Assembly (NCBI RefSeq): GCF_022429645.1
Contig: NZ_CP092480.1
Location: forward strand, 461,501-525,500
DNA: 64,000 bases
Direction of reading: 5' to 3'
DNA from: Lutibacter sp. A80
GTDB lineage: Bacteria; Bacteroidota; Bacteroidia; Flavobacteriales; Flavobacteriaceae
The notes below the pieces were generated by a model, which ran no database searches, was not told the DNA's origin, and saw nothing but the letters and a program-made list of their open reading frames with translations. Positions within the stretch are counted from its first letter, which is position 1. Every line of letters starts with the position of its first letter. The position numbers were made by a program, and so were the translations under genes. This document shows positions 59,557-64,000 of this stretch, in pieces.

Positions 59557-59576
59557 TTATATTTAATTACATATAA
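59557..59576. promoter_or_regulatory. Hip operator O3
   Basis: TTATATT-N6-CATATAA, one mismatch from O1, beginning 40 bp after O2. It reaches the first base of the hipB-like ATG, so binding would also cover the transcript start and ribosome-binding region. Confidence 0.6.
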
Positions 59577-59803
59577 TGAAGACGCTTAAACAGTTTGTTA
59601 AAGAACGAAGAAAAGAAGTAAATCTAACTCAAGAAGAGTTTGCAGATAGAGCTGGTGTTGCTTTAACTGTAATCAGAAAAATAGAACAAGGGAAAACAAA
59701 TTTAAACCTTGAAAAAGTAAATCAAGTTTTAAAAATGTTTGGGCATACATTAGTGCCAATAAGTGAAAAAGAACTAAATAATCAATTAGATGAGACAAGC
59801 TAA
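59576..59803 (+). CDS. hipB: HipB-like antitoxin (XRE helix-turn-helix)
   Basis: A 75-residue Cro/C1-type DNA-binding protein (LTQEEFADRAGVALTVIRKIEQGKTNLNLEKVNQVLKMFG). In HipBST-type systems it binds the operon promoter and augments the antitoxin. It overlaps the next gene by 14 bp. Three operator copies upstream fit autorepression. Confidence 0.88.
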   Translation: MKTLKQFVKERRKEVNLTQEEFADRAGVALTVIRKIEQGKTNLNLEKVNQVLKMFGHTLVPISEKELNNQLDETS

Positions 59804-60125
59804 TATTTTTTACAATACAGTTTATTGTGGGCTTTTAACTGAAACAAACGATGGAGATTATACGTTTCAATACGATAATGATTATATAAATAATTATCCA
59901 GAACAGTTTATCACATTTACAATGCCAGTTTCAGATACTGTTTATAGAGATAAAAGACTGTTTTCTTTTTTTGAAGGTTTAATACCAGAAGGATGGTTAT
60001 TAAATATTGCATCAAAAAGTTGGAAAATTAATCCGAATGATAGAATGGGGTTATTGTTAGCTTGTTGTAAAAATTGTATAGGAGCAGTAAGTGTTGAACC
60101 AAAAATAAATAGTGATGAAGAATAA
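59790..60125 (+). CDS. hipS: HipS-like protein (separate N-terminal HipA subdomain)
   Basis: A 111-residue protein equal to the N-terminal subdomain of HipA: VYCGLLTETNDGDYTFQYD, FITFTMPVSD, LFSFFEGLIPEGWLLNIA, and the closing GAVSVEP. In E. coli HipBST the equivalent small protein HipS is the actual antitoxin that inhibits the kinase. It overlaps hipB by 14 bp and the kinase gene by 11 bp (from ATG 60115), so the three are translationally coupled. Confidence 0.85.
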   Translation: MRQANIFYNTVYCGLLTETNDGDYTFQYDNDYINNYPEQFITFTMPVSDTVYRDKRLFSFFEGLIPEGWLLNIASKSWKINPNDRMGLLLACCKNCIGAVSVEPKINSDEE

Positions 60126-61068
60126 ATGTCTGTATTGCTATAAAGAACTTAAAGGTGAAGTTGATTTTCATAAAAAGTGTAGTTTAGAATTTTTTGGTTC
60201 AGAAACTCCTCCAAAATTACCGTATTCATTAGTTCAAATGTCTGAATTAGCTAAAAGTGTAGTTGAAAGGAGTGTTGCTGTTCCAGGGGTGCAACCGAAA
60301 TTATCTATGACATTAATAGAGGAGGAAAAACTAAAGTCGGATAAAAGGTTGACTGTTGTAGGTGCTTTAGGTGGTAACTTTATTTTTAAACCGCCGTCTG
60401 AAAATTTTGTTGAAATGCCAGAAAATGAACATTTAACAATGAGAATGGCAGAATTGTATGGAATTTCCGTTGTACCTTCTTCTTTAATTAGATTAGAATC
60501 GGGTGAATTATCATATATAACAAAACGTGTTGATAGGAGAGAGGATGGATCTAAAATTCATATGATAGATATGTTTCAAATTACCGAAGCTTTTGATAAG
60601 TATAAAGGCTCTATGGAACGTGTAGGAAAGGCGTTAGATTTGTATGCTTCAAATACATTATTAGATAAATTACGTTTTTTTGAATTGACAGTTTTTAGTT
60701 TTATAACTGGAAATAACGATATGCATTTGAAAAATTTTTCAATGATAAAAACTAATATTGGATGGAGTTTATCTCCAGCATATGACTTGTTAAATGTTAC
60801 TATTGTAAATCCTGATGATAAAGAAGAGTTTGCCTTAACAATTGCTGGGAAAAAAAGAAAAATATCTGCTGAAATATTGACTCATTTTGGATTAGGTTTA
60901 GGTCTAAATTCTAAACAGATTAATAGTGTTTATAAGAGGTTTAAAAAACAAAAAGGTAAAGTGTTAAGCTTAATTAACTGTTCTTTTCTCTCTGAGGAGA
61001 TGAAACAAGAATATATTAATTTATTAGAAGATCGATTTATGAAAATTATATTGAAAAAAGATAAATAG
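60115..61068 (+). CDS. hipT: HipT-like serine/threonine kinase toxin
   Basis: A 317-residue HipA-family kinase without the N-terminal subdomain, which is encoded by the previous gene. Residues 5-22 have a Cys-rich start (CLYCYKELKGEVDFHKKC) common in Bacteroidetes homologues. The glycine-rich loop is VAVPGVQPKLS (54-64), the ATP-side Lys is in NFIFKPPS, catalysis uses GNNDMHLKNF (199-208), and metal binding uses YDLLN (223-227). In known HipT the loop carries autophosphorylated serines (SIS); here the equivalent positions are A and P. It should phosphorylate a translation factor such as an aminoacyl-tRNA synthetase; target unknown. I use ATG 60115 rather than GTG 60112. Confidence 0.87.
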   Translation: MKNKCLYCYKELKGEVDFHKKCSLEFFGSETPPKLPYSLVQMSELAKSVVERSVAVPGVQPKLSMTLIEEEKLKSDKRLTVVGALGGNFIFKPPSENFVEMPENEHLTMRMAELYGISVVPSSLIRLESGELSYITKRVDRREDGSKIHMIDMFQITEAFDKYKGSMERVGKALDLYASNTLLDKLRFFELTVFSFITGNNDMHLKNFSMIKTNIGWSLSPAYDLLNVTIVNPDDKEEFALTIAGKKRKISAEILTHFGLGLGLNSKQINSVYKRFKKQKGKVLSLINCSFLSEEMKQEYINLLEDRFMKIILKKDK

Positions 61069-61105: not shown

Positions 61106-61400
61106 TTATTTATTACTTACTAAGTTTTCAAAATCTAATTTAATAAATTCCTAAACCTTACCTTTATAATAATTTGGTTCAAAATCAATATCTGTTAATG
61201 AAAATCAACAATTTCTGATACTAATTGATCTTTAGAATAAGTGTAAGGGTTACTTTTAAGATAAAAACCTATCATTTTAGTTAACGTAAAAGTTTCTAAT
61301 AATTCGTGTATATCCCAGAAGTCTTTTTTGCGACCACCTTATCCAATAACTTTAAATTTCATTGCAGCTATTTCTTCAATACTAGAAAGTTTAATAGTAT
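61106..61400 (-). pseudogene. Eroded remnant of an AbiEii-type nucleotidyltransferase toxin
   Basis: Reading the minus strand gives a recognisable C-terminal part of the AbiEii/DUF1814 family: KLSSIEEIAAMKFKVIG, a stop, then GGRKKDFWDIHELLETFTL and FYLKSNPYTYSKDQLVSEIV, then another stop, and in a shifted frame TDIDFEPNYYKGKV and EFIKLDFENLV. The canonical DIAAMK...GRGxKKDFxDLY pattern is clear. At least two internal stops and one frameshift show the gene is dead. The nucleotidyltransferase N-terminal domain is missing. It lies between the hip genes and an McrC remnant. Confidence 0.7.
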
Positions 61401-61402
61401 CC

Positions 61403-61680
61403 TCATAAAACTTCTATCAATTCAAAAACTTTTTGCCCAATAATTTTAGATAAATCTCCGTTTTCATCTAGTACATTTACAAAACCTAATTTACATTTAT
61501 GCATAATTGGATCGTTTGAATTTTCAAAAGCTCTATAGTTTCTGTTGTCATCATTCCCTGGATACAATAACATTACTTTTTCAGCATCCCAATACCTTCC
61601 GTAGGTATAAACTTGCCTTAAATCTTGAATACTTATATATCACCAAGTCTCCATATGGTGTCTATCACTATTATTTCAAT
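61403..61680 (-). pseudogene. Eroded remnant of McrC (5-methylcytosine restriction, C-terminal part)
   Basis: On the minus strand the segment IIVIDTIWR (PD-(D/E)XK-type core), a frameshift near 61635, ISIQDLRQVYTYGRYWDAEK, VMLLYPGNDDNRNYRAF and CKLGFVNVLDENGDLSKIIG match the C-terminal half of McrC in order; the canonical protein has IDTKWK...DLxQMxxYxxxY...LLYP. The upstream half is absent: the remnant joins the stop codon of the deaminase at 61681-61683. No mcrB is present. It ends at a TGA (61403-61405) next to the AbiEii remnant. Confidence 0.75.
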
Positions 61681-63795
61681 TTATCCCTGTTCTACTCCTC
61701 TTCTCATCATATCAGCTATTTCTCTTAAAACATCTTCATCTTTTAAACCATCGAGTTTTTTCCTTAATTCATTAAATTCTTTACCCTTCAAATTATCTTG
61801 TATTAACTTTTTTAATTGAATTGCCCTTTCCTTATTAGAAACAGATGGTTTTATATCTGACCTTAAAATTGTTTCATCTTTTACAGACATGAAAGGTTCA
61901 TAAAGTTTTTGATAACTTCGACCAATAACACCTTGAAATTGATATACATTTGGATTATTCTTTTCTTTTTTACCACCTTCCAATATATGTTCTTTGGAAA
62001 TACCTGGGTATAAATCAATGTAAAAAATATTTTTAATGCCTAACTGAAAAGCTTTTTTTGAGCAAAGTTCACAAGGAGATGCTGTAGTAAATAAATTCCC
62101 TCCCATTAACGGCTGACCTCCATACTTAGAAATCTGCAACATTGCATTTTCTTCTGCATGTAATGATCTGGTATGGACCTGATTATCTTTTGCTTCATAT
62201 GAATTATGAAAAGATTTAAAACAATAAGAACAAGGTCTTCCCTCTAATCTTTCTTCCAACCCTTTTATTTTTAGGAAATCTTTAGTTATTTTATCAATAA
62301 ACTTTTCTCCATCCTTATACTTATGTTCAGTCTTACCCTGCTCAAAATTTGAAAACTCAGTTATATCTACAGCTCCTGTTAAATCTCTAATATCTCTCAA
62401 TCCACAATGAATTTGACCTACTGGGACTTCATTCCAACCAATTCCTTTAACTGAATAATGTGAATCTGTAACAACTGCTCCTACCTGCCTTGAAATGCAA
62501 CCTGAGTTAAGTTTTGCATTAAAAGCAATTTGCATAATTCTCTCTGGATAAGTTGGAGTAATTAACCCTGGTTGTTGAATTAAACTTATCAACTTCAGTG
62601 TTTGAAAAATAAAAGGTTGATATATATAATACTTATTATCTCCTTTATACTCTTTATTCTTTCTTTTTTTTAATTCTTCTTTATGATCTTTTAGTATATC
62701 ATCAAACTTTAAATCTTCTTTAAAAACAATATGATAATCAGATTTTTGAACACAATTTTCCACATCAAAACTATCAAAATCACCTCTTTTAAATTCATTT
62801 ACTTTATATTCAGTGTCGTCTAATAATTTTATTAGGTTTATATTTTTATTTACATCGGTCTTAGAGGGTTTTTTCCTATTTTTTTCTTTAATATATTCTT
62901 GTCTAACTTTCTCTTTTCTACTACTTACCACCATATAAAAACCAGAATATTTCTCCTTAAAATACATCATTTCATAGGAATTCTTTAACCTATCAATTAT
63001 TATATGTGCTTCTCTTTTATCTTTAATTTCTGATGATGCTTTTCTATGAATTTTAATTAATTGATTTATTACATCCGCTAAAATGTAAATATAATTTAAC
63101 TTTTCCTCTTTCTTATTTTCTTTAATTACTTCAATATCTAAAGTGCCATATCTTCTAAGACAATAAGCTGCGACATGATTTAATTTATGTCTTAAAAAAC
63201 GGCTATACCAGTCTAATTTATTGAAAAATAATTTTGAAAATTCCCTATATGGTTCATTAAAAAAGAAATCACTAATATTTGAAGTTGTTAAAAAATCAAG
63301 AAGTGTATCTCCTTTAAACCGAATATTTATAGTGTCCAAAATATTTTCTAAATACTTCTTGAAATCATTCGATAAAAATTGAGAACTACCTTCTGCAATA
63401 CCAACATCCCCACCAAATCTTGGTGTTTTAAACTCTTTATAATTACCAAGGCTATCAATCCAATTACATATATTTTCAGCATATTTTTTATTATTCTTAT
63501 CGTAATTATGATGTAGGATAAATAATAGAATAACACTTCTGTAATCAACTACATCAAACTTTATCCAATTCTCTTTATGTTTGAAAAAGTCTTTTATTCT
63601 TCTTATTTTTCTCGATTCAATTCCGCTTATATCAGAATACACATTCTCAAAATCTTCAATAAACTTAAATTGTTCTTCTGTTAATTCTTCTTGCGAAAGC
63701 AACTCAACAATTTTGTCTGCTCCTGCCTGCATTTTCCCTGTAAGTCCAAGAAGAATGAAGTTTTTTCTTAATTTATAAAAATTGTTTAATGACAT
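61681..63795 (-). CDS. Anti-phage deoxycytidine nucleotide deaminase (AvcD/DCD-like)
   Basis: A 704-residue protein. The C-terminal dCMP-deaminase-like domain has the zinc motif HAEENAM (546-552) and PCELC (574-578), plus SRQVGAVVTDSHYSVKGIGWNEVPVG. The N-terminal part begins with a P-loop-like segment (LLGLTGKMQAGADK, residues 14-27) that is degenerate compared with GxxGxGK[ST]. This long N-terminal NTPase plus C-terminal deaminase layout is that of AvcD and E. coli anti-phage dCTP deaminase, which deplete dCTP/dCMP during infection. It is downstream of hsdS on the same strand by 37 bp, and A/T rich like the rest of the window. No AvcI-type RNA is evident. Confidence 0.87.
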   Translation of the reverse strand: MSLNNFYKLRKNFILLGLTGKMQAGADKIVELLSQEELTEEQFKFIEDFENVYSDISGIESRKIRRIKDFFKHKENWIKFDVVDYRSVILLFILHHNYDKNNKKYAENICNWIDSLGNYKEFKTPRFGGDVGIAEGSSQFLSNDFKKYLENILDTINIRFKGDTLLDFLTTSNISDFFFNEPYREFSKLFFNKLDWYSRFLRHKLNHVAAYCLRRYGTLDIEVIKENKKEEKLNYIYILADVINQLIKIHRKASSEIKDKREAHIIIDRLKNSYEMMYFKEKYSGFYMVVSSRKEKVRQEYIKEKNRKKPSKTDVNKNINLIKLLDDTEYKVNEFKRGDFDSFDVENCVQKSDYHIVFKEDLKFDDILKDHKEELKKRKNKEYKGDNKYYIYQPFIFQTLKLISLIQQPGLITPTYPERIMQIAFNAKLNSGCISRQVGAVVTDSHYSVKGIGWNEVPVGQIHCGLRDIRDLTGAVDITEFSNFEQGKTEHKYKDGEKFIDKITKDFLKIKGLEERLEGRPCSYCFKSFHNSYEAKDNQVHTRSLHAEENAMLQISKYGGQPLMGGNLFTTASPCELCSKKAFQLGIKNIFYIDLYPGISKEHILEGGKKEKNNPNVYQFQGVIGRSYQKLYEPFMSVKDETILRSDIKPSVSNKERAIQLKKLIQDNLKGKEFNELRKKLDGLKDEDVLREIADMMRRGVEQG

Positions 63796-63832
63796 ATGAC
63801 GTTTTTTTCTTTAGCTATTTTTTTCTTTTCCT

Positions 63833-64000
63833 TTACTCTTTTTTATAACCTTCTCCACTCTCCGCAACCATACCTAATGGCATATCCTGAGCTTGACGAA
63901 GGGCTGCCTCCCCAACCGTAACTTGCCCATTCATTAACATTGGTAATAACCAATCTCGAAGCTTGGAAAGTTTTTGGTTTTCTTTTGAGTTTACAATTAT
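63833..64000 (-). CDS. hsdS: Type I restriction specificity subunit HsdS, C-terminal end (cut by right edge)
   Basis: Not an obvious ORF because only the last 55 residues are inside. On the minus strand the frame runs from 64000 to TAA at 63833-63835. It contains ENQKLSKLRDWLLPMLMNGQ, the strongly conserved C-terminal helix/tail of HsdS, then EAALRQAQDM and LGMVAESGEGYKKE. HsdS gives a type I restriction-modification complex its DNA target; hsdM and hsdR should lie beyond the right edge. It is noticeably more G+C rich than its surroundings, consistent with transfer. The deaminase follows 37 bp downstream. Confidence 0.8.
   Translation of the reverse strand: MIVNSKENQKLSKLRDWLLPMLMNGQVTVGEAALRQAQDMPLGMVAESGEGYKKE
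63881..63907. repeat. Short repeat-like insertion inside hsdS
   Basis: The segment including CCTGAGCTTGACGAAGG (63886-63902) encodes ALRQAQ on the minus strand, in frame, between the two usual halves of the HsdS tail. This sequence resembles a common flavobacterial intergenic repeat (from memory). Confidence 0.45.

Follow-up and report, generated by a model that had tools for sequence, protein, structure and literature searches.

A divergent dCTP deaminase homologue closing a type I restriction-modification operon of Lutibacter sp. A80, probably exchangeable cargo with a second-line anti-phage role

The stretch of DNA analyzed here (the window) comprises 64,000 nucleotides of the single-contig, 3.93 Mb genome of Lutibacter sp. 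A80 (G000:C1:461501-525500) and harbors, near its right end, an intact open reading frame (ORF) encoding a deaminase homologue of 704 amino acids (aa). The end of the window cuts hsdS, the specificity gene of a type I restriction-modification (R-M) system. The locus was extended rightwards past the window end as stretch L009 (window-scale position = L009 coordinate + 58500), where the full hsdS occupies L009:5333-6586 on the minus strand (window-scale 63833-65086). The extension revealed a complete set of co-oriented genes, namely, hsdR (1022 aa), a RhuM+Fic gene (325 aa), a 23S_rRNA_IVP gene (116 aa), hsdM (542 aa), hsdS (417 aa), and the deaminase gene, with intergenic gaps in that order of 57, 28, 24, -8, and 37 bp (Table 1). 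The genes upstream of the deaminase carried the Pfam names Methylase_S, N6_Mtase, 23S_rRNA_IVP, RhuM+Fic, and HSDR_N/SWI2_SNF2/T1R_D3-like. No terminator-like site was found between hsdS and the deaminase gene. The initial annotation had placed an AvcD/DCD-like deaminase 37 bp downstream of the hsdS stop codon on the same strand and proposed that it may belong to the R-M operon. The placement was found to be exact, and by layout, the R-M operon ends with the deaminase gene.

Table 1. Features of the locus in window-scale coordinates; those beyond position 64000 lie outside the window.
Feature	Position	Strand	Basis or remark
HipB / HipA N-terminal / HipA C-terminal three-gene locus, convergent to deaminase	59576..61068	+	Pfam; context outside operon
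McrC C-terminus-like remnant, 78 codons, directly downstream of deaminase	61406..61639	-	pairwise match
Deaminase homologue, 704 aa	61681..63795	-	ATG start, stop-free frame
Spacer, A-rich, hsdS stop to deaminase ATG, 37 bp	63796..63832	-	terminator scan and Rfam: none
hsdS 3' end (gene to 65086)	63833..64000	-	Pfam
hsdM (outside window)	65079-66707	-	Pfam
23S_rRNA_IVP (outside window)	66732-67082	-	Pfam
RhuM+Fic (outside window)	67111-68088	-	Pfam
hsdR (outside window)	68146-71214	-	Pfam
mnmE (outside window)	71584-72969	-	ends 369 bp upstream of hsdR

The deaminase matched the PADLOC dCTPase model (PDLC02373) with an E-value of 1.7e-106 over residues 6-675 (model positions 147-553 of 630), and the match spans both the kinase-like and the deaminase parts. 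The kinase-like part (residues ~14-407) is predicted to have a kinase-like fold with a large helical insertion and a degenerate P-loop, the Walker-A-like loop GLTGKMQAGAD at residues 17-27. It is followed by a dCMP/dCTP-deaminase-like part (~413-620) and a helical C-terminal tail (~640-704). The zinc-binding motifs HAE and PCELC (H546, E548, C575, and C578) were found to be intact within a deaminase fold. Judged from these matches, the protein is a divergent relative of the anti-phage dCTP deaminases, outside the NCBIfam equivalog NF041025, and it probably acts by depriving viruses of one of the building blocks of DNA. The P-loop had initially been read as a sign that activation of this protein may differ from that of known members. 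It is indeed non-canonical, but the canonical Walker A motif GxxxxGK[ST] was present in none of the 81 compared relatives having the region; the form seen here, TG[KR][MI][QR]xG, is common to 10 of them, and 35 read GLTGRTGSGC[ST]. As all 81 are non-canonical, the degenerate P-loop is, by this comparison, general in the set and nothing particular to the window gene, and it was rejected as a mark of an activation special to this gene.

Of 397 Flavobacteriaceae genomes drawn evenly across the family, eight contained the deaminase gene, the window's included. A merely metabolic dCMP deaminase is unlikely because the gene is this rare and shorter deaminase-like frames (156, 150, and 406 aa) occur elsewhere in the same genome. 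With linkage defined as a co-oriented run with gaps of at most 250 bp, six of the eight (five of seven without the window) lie in a type I R-M operon: the window, L102, L104, L105, L021 (=L103), and L028 (=L106); L043/L107 and L054/L108 are unlinked by this rule. Searching one genome per species (84,980 species) gave 186 relatives, and the best 80 were kept, so the sample leans toward the relatives of the window. Together with L102, L104, L105, and the window, they form 84 loci, L103, L106, L107, and L108 being the same places as L021, L028, L043, and L054 and counted once. Genes were called with a simple script as longest ORFs of at least 60 aa. By the rule, 21 of the 84 loci are type I, 4 are type IIG-like, and 59 are neither, and no R-M run was found in the 22 non-Bacteroidota loci. 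Two of the type I rows are doubtful (L041, with a type IIG-like gene and a helicase, and L049, with a helicase/PLD-like neighbor not labelled HsdR), and L063 was counted as type I because hsdM follows the deaminase. Same-strand R-M genes lie nearby but outside the rule in L014 and L016, and R-M-labelled genes occur elsewhere in the stretch in L034, L043, L070, L071, L074, L075, and L083. The C-terminal tail was rejected as a mark of R-M linkage, the tail lengths of linked and unlinked proteins overlapping.

Six deaminase loci (four Bacteroidota, two others) and one TIR locus with less than 600 bp upstream were dropped before neighbors were counted. A co-oriented type I gene was found within 1150 bp of 18 of 58 Bacteroidota deaminases, and in 13 of the 58 the deaminase follows hsdS or hsdR at a distance of no more than 100 bp, compared with none of 20 non-Bacteroidota deaminases (Fisher, p = 0.03), one of which has hsdS nearby on the opposite strand. 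The survey of hsdS-deaminase adjacency suggested in the initial annotation thus showed that the arrangement recurs across Bacteroidota. The best-scoring TIR_2, AbiEii, and Abi_2 loci from the same family served as controls. Genes directly behind hsdS or hsdR amounted to 1/30 for Abi_2 and 0/29 for TIR_2 (13/58 vs 1/59 for the two combined, p = 0.0005), and type I genes were nearby in 0/29 TIR_2, 3/30 AbiEii, and 9/30 Abi_2 loci (18/58 vs 3/59 for AbiEii and TIR_2, p = 0.0002; vs 12/89 for all controls, p = 0.012). All 30 AbiEii genes have a co-oriented gene directly upstream, presumably the antitoxin, so the measure of lying directly behind an hsd gene is uninformative for AbiEii. Pfam alone, independently of the R-M label models, identified HsdS in 9 and HsdR-type SWI2_SNF2 in 4 of 30 direct upstream neighbors of deaminases; a separate scan covered 73 chosen neighbor genes. 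The 5' gap of the 25 R-M-linked Bacteroidota deaminases had a median of 49 bp (21/25 at most 100 bp), which is partly a consequence of the linkage rule; the 33 unlinked Bacteroidota deaminases had a median of 312 bp, and the 20 from other phyla had one of 248.5 bp. Three loci (L048, L056, and L057) have the deaminase within the R-M operon in the order hsdR, hsdS, deaminase, hsdM, with extra genes between in L048 and L056. In four Flavobacteriaceae control loci (L111, L115, L122, and L128), Abi_2 was observed between hsdS and hsdR of a type I operon, 125-165 bp behind hsdS. None of 32 matching phage records covered 80% of the query; 5 of 51 plasmid records did, all below 60% identity, and no Flavobacteriaceae were among the 15 plasmid matches listed.

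The partners of the deaminase were found to change. A quickly built tree of 83 deaminases, with SH-aLRT as the only support measure and one row below 500 aa dropped, required 21 changes of R-M linkage for 25 linked rows, and shuffled labels gave a mean of 21.7 and values as low in 215 of 500 shuffles; rows scored as not linked despite R-M genes nearby raise this count, and the tree does not distinguish gain from loss. Supported branches alone force at least 16 changes. Four supported sister pairs illustrate the pattern: L102 with hsdRMS vs L014 with a type IIG-like gene some genes upstream (DUF2779 follows both), and L053 (IIG-like), L058 (hsdR), and L032 (hsdR) vs L045, L046, and L018, respectively, each with a MazG-like gene and a Schlafen-type helicase. 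Identities of HsdM and deaminase in 19 linked loci were uncorrelated (rho 0.07, p 0.38; 153 of 171 pairs, which are not independent), and the median HsdM identity among partners of 28% indicates unlike type I families. The deaminases of the window and L102 are 63% identical with HsdM at 26%, and those of the window and L062 are 39% identical with HsdM at 73%. L015 agrees with the window in both (HsdM 76%, deaminase 58%), and L104 and L105 match each other in both.

Two arrangements next to relatives of the deaminase were noted in passing. In L018:7761-9946, L045:7286-9810, and L046:7364-9939, genes for a MazG/dUTPase-like protein and a Schlafen group 3 helicase are co-oriented upstream of the deaminase, and the three genes could possibly form a separate nucleotide-depletion module. 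A DUF2779-type gene lies 18-31 bp behind the deaminase in L014, L017, and L102, with L017 cut by the contig end.

To see what occupies the same position in sister operons, we used the window HsdM, which matched 26 places in 24 of the 397 genomes at E-values up to 1e-150, its own included; the best 20 of the 25 other places were surveyed (two from one genome, G153). The order hsdR, hsdM, hsdS was found in 19 of 20, L211 lying at a contig end with an incomplete hsdR. The hsdS gene is in two pieces in L212 and short in L214, and a RhuM/Fic-labelled gene stands between hsdM and hsdS in L215. None of the 20 operons contained the deaminase, and in 16 of them (all but L205, L209, L214, and L215) hsdS is followed within 100 bp, on the same strand, by a gene of at least 100 aa. 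These 16 slot genes fall into 13 families at an E-value of 1e-4, 14 with the deaminase. Fifteen first slot genes were scanned with Pfam (for L207, the second gene was scanned in place of the 116-aa first one), and seven were defence-like by name: AAA_21/AAA_15 in L208 and L210, AAA_21 in L223, LRR-Roc-COR-TIR in L211, AbiV HEPN in L217, DUF4062 followed by SLFN_AlbA_2 (Schlafen AlbA) in L218, and PDDEXK_4 (PD-(D/E)XK nuclease) in L221; L220 carries DUF5655. Farther from hsdS, PDDEXK_4 (L207 second gene), AAA_21 (L217 second gene), and a reverse transcriptase (L205) were found. At the DNA level, matches longer than 60 nt to the window covered hsdM, hsdR where present, and, in 19 of 20 sister operons, two patches of hsdS, one central and one 3'; none of the 20 extended past L009:5360, inside the hsdS 3' end. 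Recombination with a crossover in this 3' patch would exchange the cargo. We therefore read the position after hsdS as an exchangeable cargo slot, here with a putative nucleotide-depleting effector in it. The initial annotation had also envisaged a coupling of nucleotide depletion to DNA restriction. A dedicated coupling of this deaminase to this restriction enzyme was not supported, since the partners of near relatives differ, identities do not co-vary, and sister hsd slots hold other genes; with linkage scattered over the tree, a fixed deaminase/R-M pair was likewise rejected as a general rule.

In the reading that we consider likely, the type I R-M operon carries the deaminase at its 3' end as exchangeable cargo, and the enzyme serves as a second line of defence against phages. 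This reading builds on what is observed in the sequences, i.e., the placement, the domain make-up, the intact catalytic motifs, the recurrence, and the exchangeability. The deaminase would be transcribed together with the R-M genes and would act once restriction has failed against a phage, deaminating dCTP or dCMP such that phage DNA synthesis stalls. The deaminase itself may provide the trigger, its degenerate kinase-like part serving as the sensor, or the trigger may be some general change of the infected cell; a specific contact with one R-M complex would not be required. Two defence layers would thereby sit at one locus, and the slot would allow the second layer to be swapped.

Several observations weigh against this interpretation. 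The NF041025 model (anti-phage dCTP deaminase) was matched over its whole length at 300.6 bits, below its cut-off of 400 bits, and co-transcription, substrate, and anti-phage action are what we infer rather than observe. In the promoter check proposed at the outset, a scan for the Bacteroidetes-type -7 motif had no match upstream of hsdR, the expected place of the operon promoter, and one loose match inside hsdS; sigma-70-like sites were rarer than in shuffles (30 vs 40.7). On the tree, 36 of 61 Bacteroidota deaminases are outside any R-M run by the rule, so the linkage is optional. Abi_2 is equally often near type I genes (18/58 vs 9/30, p = 1), so the deaminase is not unique in its proximity to R-M genes. 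The R-M label models were built from the deaminase loci themselves, which biases these loci toward R-M labels, and the Pfam cross-check of this bias covers the deaminase set and not the controls. The slot survey represents one hsd family in one bacterial family at its 20 best-scoring places. Six of the 15 scanned first slot genes (L206, L212, L213, L216, L222, and L224) had no Pfam match, that of L212 has a start resembling a secreted protein, and the slot gene of L219 is methyltransferase-like.

Among the alternatives, a PrrC-like guardian arrangement would have the R-M complex keep the deaminase inactive until a phage anti-restriction protein releases it, the hsd enzyme replacing the AvcI RNA as antitoxin. 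The short 5' gap of the R-M-linked Bacteroidota loci leaves an upstream RNA antitoxin little room, but this gap is partly built into the linkage rule. PrrC is described as embedded in a type Ic operon whose R-M enzyme acts as the lock, and as freed on inhibition (PMC3874165; PMC2610378; PMC12707154). Like PrrC-EcoprrI, the window locus places an effector gene within a type I R-M operon as a second line behind restriction; it differs in that the predicted target is the dNTP pool, whereas PrrC, an anticodon nuclease, targets tRNA, and in that the deaminase is not constantly tied to a single kind of type I R-M. PrrC orthologues are described as invariably linked to type Ic R-M (PMC2610378), whereas the deaminase linkage is scattered over the tree, its partners are unlike type I families and type IIG-like enzymes, HsdM and deaminase identities are uncorrelated, near relatives of linked deaminases (L018, L045, and L046) stand behind the Schlafen-type helicase and MazG-like gene, and the same hsd operon family holds other genes in its slot. 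The changes of partner argue against a specific R-M lock, not against a general one. PrrC-like control is disfavored, and we regard it as improbable.

Still less probable is a cryptic type III toxin-antitoxin system resembling AvcID, in which an inhibitory RNA would be encoded within the 3' end of hsdS, within the 5' end of the deaminase gene, or further downstream, and shut-off of host transcription would activate the enzyme. AvcI RNA is encoded just upstream of AvcD, and the spacer of 37 bp is too short for an RNA of AvcI size, in agreement with the initial remark that there is no room for one. The short upstream space in R-M-linked Bacteroidota loci, partly a product of the linkage rule, makes an upstream RNA antitoxin unlikely here, and L009 had no Rfam match up to an E-value of 0.5 (the presence of AvcI in Rfam being unchecked). 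In favor of this alternative are the longer upstream space of the non-Bacteroidota homologues and the account of AvcD as inhibited by the labile AvcI RNA and activated when a phage shuts down host transcription and the RNA decays (PMC10511110). The window protein shares with AvcD/DcdV (PDLC02373; NF041025) a kinase-like part joined to a dCMP/dCTP deaminase part, HAE and PCxxC motifs that are both intact, and a patchy occurrence; it differs in its 704-aa length with the large helical insertion and ~60-aa tail, in scoring under the NF041025 cut-off, in its location in an R-M operon, and in having 37 bp upstream where 15 of 20 non-Bacteroidota homologues have at least 150 bp. The least probable alternative, mere neighbors in a defence island, i.e., a deaminase that landed there with its own promoter and trigger and without benefit from R-M, would fit the patchy distribution, the mnmE flank described below, the lack of co-variation with HsdM, and the outcome of the -7 motif scan, but is very unlikely given the co-oriented short-gap placement in 13/58 loci vs 0/29 for TIR_2 and 1/30 for Abi_2 and the similarly placed genes in 16/20 sister operons.

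The cargo reading may be seen alongside other genes embedded in R-M operons. Some R-M systems are described as coupled to accessory genes hypothesized to be toxins (PMC12707154), rlo and HEPN/Abi genes embedded in R-M operons have been interpreted as coupled modules for suicide or dormancy (PMC2610378; PMC3710099), and Abi_2 is among the genes placed within R-M operons (PMC3710099, table). The window operon has in common with them variable extra genes in hsd loci. The genes discussed there encode RNases (PMC2610378; PMC3710099), whereas the window gene encodes a predicted nucleotide-depleting enzyme; also, the deaminase comes after hsdS or hsdR, with hsdM following it in three loci, and Abi_2 mostly comes before hsdR. 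Embedded RNase genes are thus already known, and in the literature searched, with most subscription papers outside its coverage, no nucleotide-depleting deaminase was found as an R-M-embedded gene, a weak form of absence. The operon has the appearance of a vehicle for second-line weapons that can be swapped. Should the slot after hsdS prove to be general, scanning this position across genomes would yield new candidate effectors, and exchanging slot contents under one hsd operon would test restriction enzymes as sensors for second-line defence. By analogy, and only tentatively, the type I R-M enzyme or its inhibition might even serve as a common sensor into which unrelated effectors (deaminase, nucleases, ATPases, HEPN, and TIR proteins) are plugged by recombination at the conserved hsdS 3' patch, an idea we hold to be rather unlikely. 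Effector swapping in CBASS or retron systems offers a parallel.

The McrC-like remnant directly downstream of the deaminase aligns with residues 344-415 of the McrC of L035 (421 aa) at 36% identity over 73 aa; its assignment is based on this one pairwise match, which had an E-value of 1.6e-6 in a search of the ORFs of the surveyed loci, and the McrC proteins of L015 and L021 matched weakly (E-values 0.007 and 0.039). A 47-codon open stretch between stop codons at 61198-61338 on the minus strand has a protein-like look, but nothing matching it was found in the ORFs of the surveyed loci, and neither it nor the remnant had a Pfam match with a meaningful E-value. In L015 and L021, which belong to the clade of the window, hsdRMS, deaminase, and McrB/McrC-like genes are consecutive, and in L035, of another clade, they occur with one 264-aa gene between. 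The window locus may once have had an McrB/McrC-like pair. On the other side of the operon, the mnmE flank (3' side; window-scale 71584 onward) carries an integrase gene and defence-like genes in both examined congeners (L201 and L202), with AbiEii and a helicase/PLD protein farther along in one, while the other has an N6_N4 methylase along with a ResIII helicase and an SMC-like ATPase. The mnmE 3' flank looks like an insertion hot spot. No exact repeats of the mnmE 3' end (att sites) of at least 14 nt were found in the searched stretches of three genomes. Beyond the remnant, a HipA kinase split into two genes was observed behind the HipB-like gene.
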